DNA from: Halodesulfovibrio aestuarii DSM 17919 = ATCC 29578
GTDB lineage: Bacteria; Desulfobacterota; Desulfovibrionia; Desulfovibrionales; Desulfovibrionaceae
Direction of reading: 5' to 3'
Assembly: GCF_000384815.1 (NCBI RefSeq)
Contig: NZ_ARQF01000017.1
Span: forward strand, 1-64,000
Length of the DNA: 64,000 nt
Shown one piece after another: positions 44,932 to 51,154 of this stretch (position 1 is its first letter; each line of letters starts with the position of its first letter). The position numbers and the translations under genes were made by a program. The notes below the pieces were generated by a model, which saw nothing but the letters and a program-made list of their open reading frames with translations, ran no database searches and was not told the DNA's origin.

Positions 44932-45816
44932 TTAGATAACTTTATTCAGCGCGTATTCAATAATACCTTCTGCGCCTTCAGCTTTCAGGCGCGGGATCAG
45001 GTCACGAACGAGACCTTGATCTACAACAATCTCAACGGAGTGCCATGTTGTATCTGTGAGCTCTGCAATGGTCGGGGAGTTCAAACAAGGAATTTCGTTG
45101 AGAATCTCCGGTAATTTGTTGCTCGGTACGTTCATTTTTAGACCAACAAGGGATTCTGCACGCAGCGCTCCCTGAAGGAGAAGGTCAATTTGTTCGATCT
45201 TACGGCGTTTTTCAGGGTCAGCCCATGCAGCTTCGCTGGTTACAAGCTGGGTGTTGGTAACAAGAACCTCTGCAATAATACGCAGGCCGTGAGCGCGGAT
45301 AGTCGTACCAGTCTCGGTTACTTCAACAATTGCATCAGCAAGTCCTTCAACGACCTTTGCTTCAGTCGCACCCCATGAGTACTGCACATCAACGTCGATA
45401 CCAGCGTCTTTAAAGTATTTCTGCGTTACGCCAAGCAACTCGGTAGCTATGCGTTTACCTGCGAGATCCTCCGGTCGTTTGTACGGGGAATCACCGGCAA
45501 CAGCCAGCACCCAGCGGGCAGGGCGGTTGGAAACTTTGGAGTAGATAAGGTCTGATACAACTTTTACATCAGCACCGGTTTCAAGCAGCCAGTCTTTACC
45601 GGTAAGGCCGACATCAAGGATACCGTCTTCAATGTATGAAGGGATTTCCTGTACACGGCAGAGGCGCGCGGTGATTTCCGGATCGTTGATTTCCGGAAAG
45701 TAGTTTCTGTGGTGCTGGTGAATTTTCCAACCTGAACGCTCAAAAAGGCTGAGGGTTGGTTTTTCAAGAGAGCCTTTAGGCAGACCAAGTTTGATAATCG
45801 GATTGGTAGAAGACAT
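44932..45816 (-). CDS. hisG: ATP phosphoribosyltransferase HisG (long form)
   Basis: A 294-residue enzyme for the first step of histidine synthesis. It opens with KLGLPKGSLEKPTLSLFERS. The catalytic domain contains GILDVGLTGKDWLLETGADV and the phosphate-binding EVTETGTTIRAHGLRI. The C-terminal region (about 215-294) is the ACT-like regulatory domain of the long, HisZ-independent form, so histidine feedback inhibition is expected. Its ATG overlaps the hisI stop by one base. Confidence 0.95.
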   Translation of the reverse strand: MSSTNPIIKLGLPKGSLEKPTLSLFERSGWKIHQHHRNYFPEINDPEITARLCRVQEIPSYIEDGILDVGLTGKDWLLETGADVKVVSDLIYSKVSNRPARWVLAVAGDSPYKRPEDLAGKRIATELLGVTQKYFKDAGIDVDVQYSWGATEAKVVEGLADAIVEVTETGTTIRAHGLRIIAEVLVTNTQLVTSEAAWADPEKRRKIEQIDLLLQGALRAESLVGLKMNVPSNKLPEILNEIPCLNSPTIAELTDTTWHSVEIVVDQGLVRDLIPRLKAEGAEGIIEYALNKVI

Positions 45817-46199
45817 TATGAGTAGACCTCCTTAGGGTCGAAAACTAACGGCGAACAGATTGTAATGTCGCCTTCTTTGTTGCGTTCACGATAAAAACAG
45901 CTTTTATACCCTTTATGGCAGGCCGCGCCGCCTTTTTGCTCTACGATCAGCAGAATAGTATCGCTGTCGCAGTCAAGGCGCACGGCCTTGATATGCTGGG
46001 TATGTCCTGACGTTTTGCCTTTATGCCAAAGCGCACTGCGGCTTCGGCTAAAGTAATGGGCTTCGCCCGTCTCAAGAGTCTTGTTCCAAGCTTCTTCGTT
46101 CATATAGGCCATCATGAGCACTTCGCCAGTCGCTGCGTCTTGAGCGATAGCGGGAACAAGACCACCTGTTTTCGCAAAGTCAGGGGTAAAGTCTGTCAT
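45816..46199 (-). CDS. hisI: Phosphoribosyl-AMP cyclohydrolase HisI
   Basis: A 127-residue zinc/magnesium enzyme of histidine synthesis, here as a stand-alone domain not fused to HisE. Signatures are [40 protein letters not shown] and the metal-binding DCDSD and [15 protein letters not shown]. It is the first gene of a two-gene hisI-hisG unit. The other his genes are not in the window. Between it and 46459 the DNA holds small hairpins only, including CCTTGC-GGAT-GCAAGG on the minus strand (46396-46411). Confidence 0.95.
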
Positions 46200-46458: not shown

Positions 46459-47442
46459 CTAACGAACTACATCTACGTGGATAGAGGCCAGATGCTCCAG
46501 TTCTTCGCTAAGAGAAAGTGCGTGCCCTAAGGTGTCTGCCCAACATACGAGTCCGTGTTTTTCCATGTACACAGCATCGTGCGTTATGGCGGCTTTTCCT
46601 GTTGCCTGTGCAAGTTCCACAGTACCCGGTGCAAAAGCAGGAGCAGTAGTCATACGGGAGCCTATTAAATCTGTTTCAAAAATTGGGAGCTTCAGCATCT
46701 TAGCTGGTTCTACAAGTACACCAAGGGCAAGAATCTTTGGTGGATGAGTGTGTAGAATAGCATGTGCGTTAGGCTGGTTTCGATAAATTTCCAAATGCAT
46801 TTCGCCCTCAGAAGAGGGTTTGCTTCCAGCTAAGATTTTGCCACTGGCAATATCGACCAGCACAAAATCTTTTGGTTCAAGGCATCCTTTTGCAGAGCCT
46901 GTTGCTGTCATAAGACAAGCGTCACCCAGACGGACAGATGCATTGCCGTTGAATCCTGAAAAAAGTCGTCGACTCCATGCACTGCGGCATACCTGTGTGA
47001 TTTCGTCTATATCCTGATGACGAATATCCACCGGAGTAATTAGATTAGCGGGGGTAGGTGTCTTTTTGATGTCAATAAGTGGAGTTTTATCTAACGCCTC
47101 AAGTGGTTCCACACGGACTTTGTTCTCTGTAATTTCAAGAATGGTTACAGTATGAACACCAATCGGGTTTGGACGGGCTGGAGAACGGGTAGAAAAAACA
47201 CCACGTTCCGGACGGGACCGATCTCCACGGGGATGAACCTTCATCGTCGTCCTATCCGCTTTATGAAACCATGTGAGCAGATCAATACTTTGTCCAACAG
47301 TTAGTCCGGCTAAGGCATTAACAAACTCCGGAGCAACTTCGACCCATGCTTCTTTACCGCCTTCGTTGCCTTGTTTCGGGCATTTTTCCAGATCATCAAA
47401 TTGAGTTCGAACTCTACCGATAAATTGAACTTCTGCTGTCAT
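46459..47442 (-). CDS. TrmO-like tRNA methyltransferase fused to a class II aldolase
   Basis: A 327-residue two-domain protein. Residues 1-135 match TrmO/UPF0066, a beta-barrel SAM-dependent enzyme that N6-methylates t6A37 in tRNA-Thr. The motifs are VHPRGD and RGVFSTRSPARPNPIGVHTV. Residues about 140-327 match class II (fuculose-phosphate type) aldolases: GFNGNASVR, a catalytic Glu in PSSEGEMH, and zinc ligands His231/His233 (HTHP) and His296 (EKHG). Both active sites look complete. No stop or frameshift separates them. AGGAA precedes the ATG. The aldolase substrate is unknown. Confidence 0.88.
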   Translation of the reverse strand: MTAEVQFIGRVRTQFDDLEKCPKQGNEGGKEAWVEVAPEFVNALAGLTVGQSIDLLTWFHKADRTTMKVHPRGDRSRPERGVFSTRSPARPNPIGVHTVTILEITENKVRVEPLEALDKTPLIDIKKTPTPANLITPVDIRHQDIDEITQVCRSAWSRRLFSGFNGNASVRLGDACLMTATGSAKGCLEPKDFVLVDIASGKILAGSKPSSEGEMHLEIYRNQPNAHAILHTHPPKILALGVLVEPAKMLKLPIFETDLIGSRMTTAPAFAPGTVELAQATGKAAITHDAVYMEKHGLVCWADTLGHALSLSEELEHLASIHVDVVR

Positions 47443-47637
47443 GGTACATTCCTATTAGCCGAAAGAAGTATGTCATGGGGTGATAGTAATGTCCGTGTAG
47501 TCTGAACACATGACATTGGTTACGGGCGATACTTTTCCGCTAAGCTGGTGGGGGGAGAGGAGCAAATCCCTTCCCCCCGAAGGTAAAAAAAATCAAAAGA
47601 AAAAGAGTCGCAGCTCCATCGGAAGCATAGCTTTTAG

Positions 47638-48642
47638 CTATGCAAAATGGTCAAATCCATGTTCTGTAACTGGTTGCCCATTCATGATAATTTTCCCATT
47701 GTTGGTAACGATGCCGAGTTTCTGTATTTGAGGAAGTTTTACACTTAGTTCCGCAAAGATGGAAGCAGGGCAGGTCCCAAGAAGCGCATAATCCTCACCG
47801 CCTTTGAAGGCTTCGAGTACAGGGTCGAGATTCTTTTCCAACGCGTAGGATAGTTGCTCAGCGTGCAGCATATCTGTTGTAATATTGATGCTTGCGCCTT
47901 TTGCGGACGGTTTATCTGCCGATGCTGTGGTTTTTTCACCGAGCAACCGCGGAAGATCACGTGCAAGTCCGTCGGATAAATCCATGAGTGTTATGCCGCT
48001 ATACGCGGAAAGAAGTTGCCCGGCTTCAAGCTGCGGTACAGGGCGCAGATGTGCGCCGGTTGCTGCAGGGTACTCATCCACAGCGTTACGACCAATGCTT
48101 TCGAGCGCGTAAAGTCCAGTGCGTGCAAGTCCAAGTGTCCCTACAAGGAAAATGATGTCCCCTTCGGAACAGCCAGTGCGGCTGAGGAAAACTGGTGTTC
48201 CGCCTGCGGTACGGGTTGGTGCTCCCCATATGGTTACTGATGTACCTAAAATGGGCGACTTGGAAAGATCACCACCCGCAAGCGGTACATTGTATTTTTG
48301 TGCAAGGCTTGCCATTCCGCCGAAGAAGTCATCCCAGTAAGCCGGATTCCGTCCTTCCGGAATCATAAGGTCGAGCGAGAATCCGAGCGGCGTTGCACCA
48401 GATGCTGCAATGTCACTAAGGCTGACAGCGAGAGCTTTGTAGCCGATGTCCTCGGGGGAAAAGTATTGTTCGCGAAAATGGATATCTTCGAGAAACAGAT
48501 CTGATGATAAGCAGATGCGTTCCGGACATGCGAGAACCGCGCAGTCGTCACCGCGCCCGATGATGAGGTGGGCGTGGCTGTTTGGAAAATGTCGGTCAAT
48601 ACAATCTAAGAAAGCAACTTCGGAAGATAATTTATGCGTCAT
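47638..48642 (-). CDS. thiL: Thiamine-monophosphate kinase ThiL
   Basis: A 334-residue PurM-fold kinase making thiamine diphosphate. Metal/ATP residues are in IIGRGDDCAVL, SSDLFLEDIHF and YKALAVSLSDIAASGATPLG. GGDLSKSP and MDLSDGLARDLPRLLG follow. AGGAG lies 8 nt before the ATG. It contains a short Thr/Ala/Lys-rich insert (GEKTTASADKPSAKGAS). No other thiamine genes are adjacent. The DNA from 47443 to 47637 holds no gene, only a G-rich/C-rich imperfect hairpin near 47549-47577. Confidence 0.93.
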   Translation of the reverse strand: MTHKLSSEVAFLDCIDRHFPNSHAHLIIGRGDDCAVLACPERICLSSDLFLEDIHFREQYFSPEDIGYKALAVSLSDIAASGATPLGFSLDLMIPEGRNPAYWDDFFGGMASLAQKYNVPLAGGDLSKSPILGTSVTIWGAPTRTAGGTPVFLSRTGCSEGDIIFLVGTLGLARTGLYALESIGRNAVDEYPAATGAHLRPVPQLEAGQLLSAYSGITLMDLSDGLARDLPRLLGEKTTASADKPSAKGASINITTDMLHAEQLSYALEKNLDPVLEAFKGGEDYALLGTCPASIFAELSVKLPQIQKLGIVTNNGKIIMNGQPVTEHGFDHFA

Positions 48643-48728: not shown

Positions 48729-50879
48729 TTAGTCTTCCATAACTAAGTAAGCTTCCATAATGACTTTAAGTCCGAAGCCTGGGAAATTAACACGGTATTT
48801 GTCTGGTGGCAGATGCTGGATGATTTTTCCGCGACCGAAAATCTTGTGTGTGCAGTGACCGAGCTTGCCGCCGCTCACTGAACTGGTAGCCGCCCCGCTT
48901 GTTGATGGAGCCGACGTCTTTGCACCGTTCTTTTGTGGGGTGCGGTGAGGCGGAGTGCTTGTGGGGCGCGCTGTCTGTGTAACTGTGCCTGAGTAGTTTT
49001 CGCGCCATTCTTCGTAAAGAGAACCCGGGATATCGCGTACAAACGGGCTTGGGATTGCCGGTTCGTTACCGCCTGTTCCGCGTGCATAGAGTGATGAAGG
49101 AACAAAGAGTCCTAGGTACTTACGCGCACGGGTACATGCAACGTACATAAGGCGTCGCTCTTCTTCGAATTCATCTGCCTTTTGAACTGCATGGCGTGAC
49201 GGGAAGCGGTCTTCCACTAAGTCTATGATGAGTACTGCATCCCATTCCAACCCTTTTGCAGAGTGGATTGTGGAAAGAGTTATGAGATCCTGTTCCTCTT
49301 CTTCCTGTCTCTGGGTCGGGTCTTCTAATGAAAGGTCAGATAAGAATAGTTCGATGTCAGAATAGCCTGACGCAATCTGTACAAGTTGCTCAAGACCGTG
49401 TTCTCGACGCGGGTAGTCGTCGGGGTAGATGGTTTTGAGTTTTGGCTTGTAATGCGCAAGAACTTCTTCAAGTAATTCCACTGGCTCAAGGCGCTGACGG
49501 CGTAATGAGTCAATAAGATCAAGGTCTTCTCGTAACTCAGGGTAACGCACCAGCGCTTTTTTCAGCTTGTTCGGATCTTCTGCCTGTGTGGCTTCGTAAA
49601 TGCGAATAGAAGTTTTTGGGCCTACACCTTTAATGTTGGCGGTGAGGCGGTGGAATGCCGGCAAGTCGAGCGGGTTCATGAGCAGACGTACGTAGCTCAT
49701 AACGTCTTTAACATGCGCAGCGTCTGAGTATTTCAGCCCACCGTATTTACGGAATTTCAAGCCCAGTTTGTTAAGCTGCATTTCTACATGGTAGGACTGG
49801 TAGCCTGCACGGAACAGAACTGCAATTTCTTTGTTCTTGTATTTTTTGCGTAGCTTACCGATTTTATCTACGACCATTTTTGCCTGTGTCAGGTCAGAGA
49901 GAGGAATGAGTACTTCCGGCTTTCTTCCGTCTTTCTTGTTGGAAAACAGGTTTTTTTGAAACGCCTGCGGCGCTTCTGCAAGAATGGAGTTGGTTAAGTC
50001 GAGAATAGGCTGGATGGAACGATAGTTTTCTTCCAGTTTAACCATTTTGCAACCTGCGAACAGCTTAGGAAAATCAAGAATGTTCTGCACGTTCGCGCCA
50101 CGGAATGCGTAAATGGACTGTGCATCGTCGCCTACAGCCATAACATTGCCATGACCACCAGCGAGAAGGCGGACGATACGAGCCTGAACGAGGTTGGTAT
50201 CCTGATATTCGTCCACCATAATGTACTTGAAGCGCTGCTGATAGTATTCGCGTACTTCTTTGTTCACAGTGAGAAGTTGTTCAAGTTTAAAGAGCAGGTC
50301 ATCATAATCAAGCAGACCGTGTTGCGCTTTGTACTGTTCATATTCTGAACCGATGTTGGCAATGTCATCGCGGTATGCGGCAAGGTGGAATGCTTCACGG
50401 CGAAGTATGTCATGCAGATCCATTTCTTTGTTACGGCTTTTGGAGAGCATTCCCATAACAGTCTGGATCTTAGGAAATGACTTGTCTCCCTTGCCGATAG
50501 CAAGCGTGTCCTTGCAGTACTTGAGTGCACCGTTAGCATCCGCAGAGTCCATAATGGAAAGAGAGCCTTCGTACTCTGCCGGAGGATTCTGGCGTAGAAC
50601 TGAATAGGCAAATGCGTGGAATGTTCCGCCGGTAATGTTGCCGACAGATTGTCCGAGCAGTTCGGCGGCACGTTGGAGCATTTCCTGCGAGGCTTTGCGG
50701 GTAAATGTGAGTAACAGGATCTCGTGCGGCGAGACGCCTTGTTCAATCATATTTGCAAGACGGTATACAAGCGTACGGGTTTTGCCGGAACCGGCACCCG
50801 CAATAACAAGCATAGGGCCTTCAAGAGTCGTTGCCGCATCGTACTGGGCAGGGTTCAATTCATTTTTGTAGTCGATCAT
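48729..50879 (-). CDS. UvrD/Rep-type superfamily I DNA helicase
   Basis: A 716-residue 3'-5' helicase. Motifs: LNPAQYDAATTLEGPMLVIA, Walker A AGAGSGKTRTL, TFTRKASQEM, DEYQDTN, GDDAQSIYAFRGA, LEENYRS, TIHSAKGLEWDAV and VACTRARKYL. The tail is Ser/Thr/Ala-rich and followed by a short beta-like module (KLGHCTHKIFGRGKIIQHLP) seen in PcrA/UvrD C-termini. The start at 50879 is chosen because homology begins there. The longer frame to 51116 is translated from the palindrome and is spurious. There is no close Shine-Dalgarno sequence. Confidence 0.92.
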   Translation of the reverse strand: MIDYKNELNPAQYDAATTLEGPMLVIAGAGSGKTRTLVYRLANMIEQGVSPHEILLLTFTRKASQEMLQRAAELLGQSVGNITGGTFHAFAYSVLRQNPPAEYEGSLSIMDSADANGALKYCKDTLAIGKGDKSFPKIQTVMGMLSKSRNKEMDLHDILRREAFHLAAYRDDIANIGSEYEQYKAQHGLLDYDDLLFKLEQLLTVNKEVREYYQQRFKYIMVDEYQDTNLVQARIVRLLAGGHGNVMAVGDDAQSIYAFRGANVQNILDFPKLFAGCKMVKLEENYRSIQPILDLTNSILAEAPQAFQKNLFSNKKDGRKPEVLIPLSDLTQAKMVVDKIGKLRKKYKNKEIAVLFRAGYQSYHVEMQLNKLGLKFRKYGGLKYSDAAHVKDVMSYVRLLMNPLDLPAFHRLTANIKGVGPKTSIRIYEATQAEDPNKLKKALVRYPELREDLDLIDSLRRQRLEPVELLEEVLAHYKPKLKTIYPDDYPRREHGLEQLVQIASGYSDIELFLSDLSLEDPTQRQEEEEQDLITLSTIHSAKGLEWDAVLIIDLVEDRFPSRHAVQKADEFEEERRLMYVACTRARKYLGLFVPSSLYARGTGGNEPAIPSPFVRDIPGSLYEEWRENYSGTVTQTARPTSTPPHRTPQKNGAKTSAPSTSGAATSSVSGGKLGHCTHKIFGRGKIIQHLPPDKYRVNFPGFGLKVIMEAYLVMED

Positions 50880-50906
50880 GGTGTTATCTTGGTTTGCCTC
50901 CGGCGG

Positions 50907-50954
50907 GCAGAGGGGGAACCCCGTTTTTTCGAAAAAACGGGGTTCCCCCTCTGC
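50907..50954. repeat. 48-bp perfect palindrome upstream of the uvrD-like gene
   Basis: The 24-nt arm GCAGAGGGGGAACCCCG plus TTTTTTC (50907-50930) is followed with no loop by its exact complement (50931-50954). It lies 28 nt before the helicase start and 200 nt past the phosphodiesterase stop. It could be a terminator acting on either strand or a dispersed palindromic repeat. A nearby C-rich stretch continues to 50992. Confidence 0.85.
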
Positions 50955-51154
50955 ACTCCCCCTCCTGAAAAAATAGTTAGGGGATGGAGGACGTATATAT
51001 TGCGAGTTAACCAAAAGGTAGTAGTGTATAAGCCGCGAGGCTACAGATAACGACAGTGAACAGGTTCTTTGGCCGACGGAGGCAAGCTCTGCAGGTTCGC
51101 AGACGGTATCCTGCAAATAAGCATCGCCGGAGACAAAAGAAGTACCACCGGTTA

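Follow-up and report, generated by a model that had tools for sequence, protein, structure and literature searches.

A methyltransferase-aldolase fusion of TrmO type, old and order-wide in the Desulfovibrionales, whose aldolase half is a candidate for the salvage of SAM by-products

In the salvage of SAM by-products, the pathway order is deaminase, PNP and then MtnA. A Methanocaldococcus paper cited in PMC6079011 names a 5'-deoxyadenosine deaminase route in its title. The enzymes known to act next, MtnB, DrdA and Ald2, belong to the Aldolase_II family (PMC6079011, PMC6302742), and the final shunt step is performed by DrdA/Ald2 (PMC6079011, PMC10986504). E. coli K-12 supplied with mtnK, mtnA and ald2 is able to grow on 5-deoxyribose (PMC10986504). 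TrmO is known from a different context. According to PMC4132733, m6t6A in E. coli is strongly reduced by the TrmO changes D125A and Q25A and is not restored by R92A or K136A, and the DPRxxY domain is required. In the same paper, the AdoMet contacts of AF0241 are given as Q22, R82, D111 and K122, the archaeal TrmO homologues are described as all lacking DPRxxY, m6t6A as unseen in archaeal tRNA, and the short archaeal type as having no known substrate. We found no report of a TrmO-class II aldolase (UPF0066-aldolase) fusion in the literature searched, most subscription journals being outside its scope. Here we describe such a fusion, encoded in a window of 64,000 nucleotides (the whole stretch of DNA analysed) from Halodesulfovibrio.

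The initial annotation had reported one uninterrupted TrmO-class II aldolase frame at this position, and the coordinates and the observation itself are confirmed, with the gene lying on the minus strand, a point left unstated there (Table 1). The frame is read from 47442 to 46459, begins with ATG and contains no internal stop; an AGGA is seen by eye 7-8 nt 5' of the ATG. Pfam places TrmO_N at residues 21-126 (E 5.2e-24) and Aldolase_II at residues 147-322 (E 2.1e-39), both above the curated cut-offs, and the motifs on which the two names had been based are all present, namely VHPRGD (residues 69-74), RGVFSTRSPARPNPIG (residues 80-95) and the metal/catalytic residues E212/H231/H233/H296. A structure model of the protein, built from 43 fused sequences, has a mean pLDDT of 88.9 and a pTM of 0.60, and consists of two domains connected by a loose linker (residues 130-138). 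Foldseek matched the aldolase half to FucA (2opi) and DrdA (6btg), and the TrmO half to SAM-bound AF0241 (2nv4). Among the best 25 NCBIfam models, TIGR00104 is the sole one passed by the fusion protein, so that an annotation based on that model would say TrmO and hide the single class II aldolase apparently needed by MtnA.

Promoter and terminator scans around the gene gave nothing above shuffled sequence, and no conserved RNA element or riboswitch was found near it, the single weak Rfam match (E 0.26, a microRNA model) lying inside the ORF. A G/C-rich inverted repeat, uncalled by the terminator scan, can be seen by eye between thiL and the fusion gene, at 47540-47600 of the window.

Table 1. 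Features of the fusion gene and of its neighbourhood, in window coordinates.
Feature	Coordinates	Strand	Remarks
trmO-aldolase fusion gene, 327 aa	46459..47442	minus	single ORF
TrmO_N half, residues 1-128	47059..47442	minus	AdoMet-site equivalents Q24, R86, E115 (Asp in AF0241), K126
Flexible linker, residues 130-138	47029..47055	minus	pLDDT <50
Class II aldolase half, residues 144-327	46462..47013	minus	E212, H231, H233, H296
thiL, thiamine-phosphate kinase, conserved upstream neighbour	47638..48642	minus	TIGR01379 above cut-off
UvrD/PcrA-like helicase, conserved upstream neighbour	48729..51116	minus	no equivalog cut-off passed; true start may be further in
hisI (phosphoribosyl-AMP cyclohydrolase), downstream neighbour	45816..46199	minus	in 4 loci read: window, L068, L086, L087
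hisG (ATP phosphoribosyltransferase), downstream neighbour	44932..45816	minus	in 4 loci read: window, L068, L086, L087

The methyltransferase-aldolase fusion is real, old and order-wide. A search for the architecture across genomes rendered it in at least 35 of the 199 genomes of the family, 29 of them with a single match over both halves and 6 with two matches in one open frame (G021, G085, G066, G112, G100 and G038); 26 of the 29 single matches begin by residue 9. All 10 genomes sampled from Halodesulfovibrio carry it. The class was sampled with 297 genomes, of which 42 have no match at all; among the 44 that have any match and belong to other families of the same order, a single match covers both halves in 42, that is, in all but G230 and G275. 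Outside the class (247 genomes of the phylum), none of the matches listed spans both halves. When the gene was compared with those of three relatives of the same genus, dN/dS was below 0.1 in each half wherever computable, with dS near saturation. The many independent assemblies and the low dN/dS rule out both chance and an artificial joining of two genes through faulty sequencing or assembly, and the other outcome that would have undone the initial annotation, homologues that are always separate, is likewise excluded. One gene of the same genus (L087:7471-8808, in G021) has an insertion of ca. 36 aa in its aldolase half and a longer N-terminal open frame.

The order helicase-thiL-fusion gene recurs in the 18-19 kb stretches of relatives, and tblastn detected thiL or the helicase at 44 of the 61 fused loci. 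Many loci of this set are limited to 1.5 kb of flanking sequence, and some come from the same genome as another. At the same helicase-thiL locus TrmO stands alone (134-141 aa) in L056-L060, and the aldolase alone in L053 (220 aa) and L055 (216 aa); thiL is present in 7/7 solo TrmO stretches and in 6/7 solo aldolase stretches, being absent from L054. In the aldolase tree, from which 5 of 71 rows were omitted as near-copies, a single clade (SH-aLRT 99) holds the fused and solo rows, and the seven solo rows cluster together within it (93). Fused and solo rows also form one clade (98) in the TrmO tree, together with L099, which belongs to another family. Nine of the 81 rows were left out of this second tree: L003, L004, L005, L007, L037, L119 and L120 (near-copies or repeats), L107b, which is partial, and L096. 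The last is a solo TrmO from another family and, once re-added, fell nearest to L099 and then to rows of the fused clade. Because of the fused and solo clades in both trees, the fusion is taken as the ancestral state of one conserved helicase-thiL-X locus, formed in an ancestor of the Desulfovibrionales, from which the halves were lost separately. Among the rows of the trees, the TrmO half was lost once and the aldolase half probably several times; on the TrmO tree the solo label requires six changes, of which the starred branches force only one. In genus g40, TrmO_N is absent from 13 of the 15 genomes of the family sample and an aldolase match is found in all 15, and six genomes of the larger class sample have neither. 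The fact that either half is kept alone at the same locus indicates that the halves are separable and leaves a joint single reaction, as had been proposed at first, unsupported.

The explanation that we favour, with a probability of about one half, is that two separable enzymes are carried on one chain, the C-terminal half being a shunt aldolase that acts on MtnA products and the N-terminal half having its own substrate. The C-terminal half, as the only FucA-family aldolase of the cell, would cleave the ketose-1-phosphate made by MtnA. The main substrate would be 5-deoxyribulose-1-phosphate, derived from the radical-SAM by-product 5'-deoxyadenosine and split into DHAP and acetaldehyde, and 5-methylthioribulose-1-phosphate, giving DHAP and methylthioacetaldehyde, may be an additional one. 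In the genome of the window, the upstream steps would be those of a deaminase, PNP and MtnA, in a DHAP-shunt-like route, and the aldehyde could pass to an aldehyde:ferredoxin oxidoreductase. More tentatively, the N-terminal half may be a short archaeal-type class VIII SAM methyltransferase working on a substrate of its own, and the fusion would link the halves in expression or assembly, not in one reaction.

Genome content is consistent with this assignment of the aldolase half. The fusion is the only Aldolase_II protein of the window's genome (G000), in which mtnA lies on a different contig (G000:C20:995157-996137, score 400.9, cut-off 279; the fusion is on C17). For the two deaminases that the same genome encodes, the highest-scoring models are 5'-deoxyadenosine deaminase and TRZ/ATZ hydrolase, neither of which reaches its cut-off; two PF01314 (aldehyde:ferredoxin oxidoreductase) matches are present as well. 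The genome has no RuBisCO-like protein, and its only PF01048 members are PNP I and futalosine hydrolase; of the salvage genes whose co-occurrence the initial annotation had asked about, MtnA is thus accompanied by no MTAN or MTAP. In the 7 mtnA loci read, neither the fusion or its halves nor a pathway cluster with mtnA was found; the neighbours scanned were gatB, der, serS, thiazole synthase and cytochrome bd genes, and in L090 (G058) another Aldolase_II gene lies ca. 5.5 kb from mtnA.

Across the family, MtnA was detected in 185 of 199 genomes (181 above cut-off) and Aldolase_II in 181. Of the 14 genomes without MtnA and the 18 without Aldolase_II, 8 lack both (Fisher p 1.9e-6). Restricting the comparison to 149 good genomes left 5 without MtnA, 6 without Aldolase_II and 4 without both (Fisher p 3.8e-6), although these four (G006, G035, G064 and G086) come from three genera, so that few events are involved and the p value overstates their independence. 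Exceptions are G119 and G124, with MtnA and without Aldolase_II, and G047, the reverse. The 14 genomes without MtnA include none of the 35 with the fusion, and 30 of these 35 have a single Aldolase_II match, the other 5 having two. The four double-loss genomes are without the deaminases too, their best amidohydrolases being adenine deaminase (G006, G086) and dihydroorotase (G035, G064); proteins of the 5'-deoxyadenosine/MTA-deaminase group, below cut-offs, were found in G000, G120, G045, G040, G254 and G191. In G171, of genus g8, MtnA is present and no such deaminase appears among matches stronger than 1e-45; this genome encodes a RuBisCO-family protein (G171:C2:3376408-3377304) and a replacement aldolase.

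Such replacement aldolases occur in nearly all genomes of the four large genera that match with TrmO only. In g5, g8, g25 and g29, 59 of 61 genomes have a different Aldolase_II protein and all 61 have MtnA; the two without a replacement are G180 (69% complete) and G194 (73%). The replacement in g8 is FucA/DrdA-like, with ca. 220 aa (L072, L073), and the others in the loci read have ca. 390-400 aa with a C-terminal Aldolase_II; in that of L060 the N-terminal ca. 200 aa have no Pfam match. The ca. 390-aa protein adjoins an aldehyde:ferredoxin oxidoreductase gene in 7/7 loci (L060:6192-9226, L074, L075, L076, L077, L088 and L089), the oxidoreductase having been assigned by Pfam in L060, through matches to PF01314 for G029, G191 and G143, and by clustering in the rest. 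This neighbour is expected of an aldolase that releases an aldehyde; no paper linking aldehyde ferredoxin oxidoreductase with 5-deoxyribose was found, with most subscription journals outside the scope of the search. The requirement for an aldolase tracks MtnA rather than TrmO. The aldolase half probably acts as the shunt aldolase in these anaerobes, clearing radical-SAM sugar waste. The SAM-linked salvage step put forward in the initial annotation, cleavage of a deoxy- or methylthio-sugar phosphate, is supported by the genome evidence for the aldolase (MtnA present, the fusion as sole Aldolase_II, and the joint loss of the two in the family), and does not extend to both halves acting in one reaction.

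It could also be the case, though we regard it as unlikely, that the aldolase half works on another ketose phosphate, such as L-fuculose-1-P or ribulose-1-P, or in a step giving lactaldehyde or methylglyoxal. With E212, H231, H233 and H296 it has the E, H, H, H metal/catalytic set of the aligned E. coli FucA, and these residues occur in 50/50 fused and 7/7 solo rows; it passes no NCBIfam cut-off among the best 25 models: the top scores, for 3-oxo-tetronate-4-phosphate decarboxylase and archaeal FucA models, are all below cut-off, those for FucA being 96.0/250 (FucA_Meth), 77.9/264, 70.0/264 and 67.8/400 bits, and the MtnB dehydratase model TIGR03328 gives 75.4 against 137.05. The identity of these top models favours such a substrate, as does the promiscuity of these aldolases for the aldehyde (PMC6079011). 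However, MtnA would then have no known next enzyme in the window's genome, and the replacement aldolases track MtnA.

Regarding the TrmO half, its sequence places it in the short archaeal type, with the SAM residues mostly kept. It scores 112.6 against a cut-off of 93.25 with TIGR00104 and 85.1 against 26.8 bits with PF01980, and is the only TrmO_N of the window's genome. It has no PF18389 match in Pfam and no DPRxxY motif; PF18389 is present in the TrmO of G006, a genome from a different genus of the family. The half is not basic (median pI 6.2). The AdoMet contacts Q22, R82, D111 and K122 of AF0241 align with Q24, R86, E115 and K126, and among 50 fused loci, out of at least 77 fused genomes seen, K126 is found in 50, R86 in 47, Q24 in 29 and Glu in place of Asp at position 115 in 49. 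Glu is also present at this position in 7/7 solo rows and in all 43 sequences of the structure-model alignment, and Asp in most rows that are neither fused nor from the solo loci. Glu is likewise found in L096, L099 (identical with L119) and L111, all of them unfused genes from outside the class, so this residue is not unique to the fusion; given L096 and L099, either it predates the fusion or the gene has moved between lineages. L096 (G427, f15) and L099 (G446, f54) are solo short TrmO genes near the fused clade. Of the 10 Halodesulfovibrio genomes, 3 have a second TrmO_N match, that of the window not being one of them, and a solo TrmO paralogue of G096 (L136:1713-2195) has the usual Asp. The lack of DPRxxY, the variable Q24, the change from Asp to Glu and the non-basic character would all speak against an RNA substrate; even so, an RNA appears a more likely target of this half than a metabolite.

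We consider it improbable that both halves belong to one pathway as a true Rosetta stone, with the TrmO half methylating the metabolite of the aldolase or sensing SAM/SAH for it. Such a role would suit a short archaeal-type TrmO, which has no known substrate (PMC4132733), and the drift at the residues for the SAM amino group (Q24 and position 115) with R86 and K126 kept. A second link between the two proteins exists outside the class, in family f44, where an aldolase gene is followed on the same strand by a TrmO gene, their longest frames overlapping, in 3 of 5 genomes (G390, G422 and G500). The order is opposite to that of the fusion, and the pair lies behind a CDP-alcohol phosphotransferase gene in clusters (L101-L105) with UbiX/UbiD/UbiA-like, PNP-family, CDP-alcohol phosphotransferase, and aldolase and/or TrmO genes. 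Both f44 proteins fall outside the fused clades in the trees, and hence their association is separate from the fusion. However, f44 too has members with TrmO only (G355) or aldolase only (G450), as at the helicase-thiL locus, and adjacency in one of the ca. 90 families sampled is by our estimate near chance; this family is weak evidence alone, and a functional link is possible. In addition, G390 has a cluster of MtnA-like (below cut-off), PNP-family and aldolase genes (L139:6627-11154, on G390:C11) apart from the TrmO-linked aldolase, which therefore need not be the shunt enzyme. It is similarly doubtful that short archaeal-type TrmO proteins in general act in metabolism, as class VIII methyltransferases or SAM/SAH-responsive domains linked to ketose-1-phosphate aldolases; if they did, many 'tRNA methyltransferase TrmO' annotations of anaerobes would belong to SAM by-product metabolism.

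About equally improbable is an ordinary tRNA m6t6A37 methyltransferase in which the aldolase half stands in for the missing C-terminal tRNA-binding domain, since, in spite of the TIGR00104 score and of the absence of any other TrmO_N in the genome, the TrmO-only relatives at the locus have no such domain, the linker is flexible, and the DPRxxY motif, required in E. coli according to PMC4132733, is absent.

If the reading of two separable enzymes, with a shunt aldolase at the C-terminus, is true, anaerobes of the Desulfovibrionales dispose of 5'-deoxyadenosine by an overlooked enzyme. Moreover, the fusion and the separate losses of its domains provide natural single-domain controls for the function of short TrmO, a question that dates from the naming of TrmO.

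Compared with the short archaeal TrmO/YaeB protein AF0241, the TrmO half has the same class VIII beta-barrel (fold match to 2nv4, TM 0.85 by target length), and R86 and K126 match the critical AdoMet carboxylate residues; it differs in having Glu for Asp at position 115 and in being joined to an aldolase. The lack of the TrmO_C/DPRxxY domain sets it apart from TrmO/YaeB and is common to the archaeal members. The aldolase half shares fold and catalytic residues with bacterial and archaeal FucA, but reaches only 96.0 of 250 bits with FucA_Meth and ends ca. 30 residues short of the C-terminus of E. coli FucA. With DrdA/Ald2 it shares the class II FucA fold (6btg, TM 0.80 by target length), the E-H-H-H set as in FucA and the presence of MtnA in the same genome, whereas the fusion gene lies outside any mtnA/mtnK cluster and has an N-terminal methyltransferase added. 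A parallel in architecture is Arabidopsis DEP1 (PMC6079011), where a domain of the class II aldolase family that acts in SAM salvage is likewise joined to another enzyme; the partner differs, being in DEP1 a HAD phosphatase that belongs to the salvage pathway itself.
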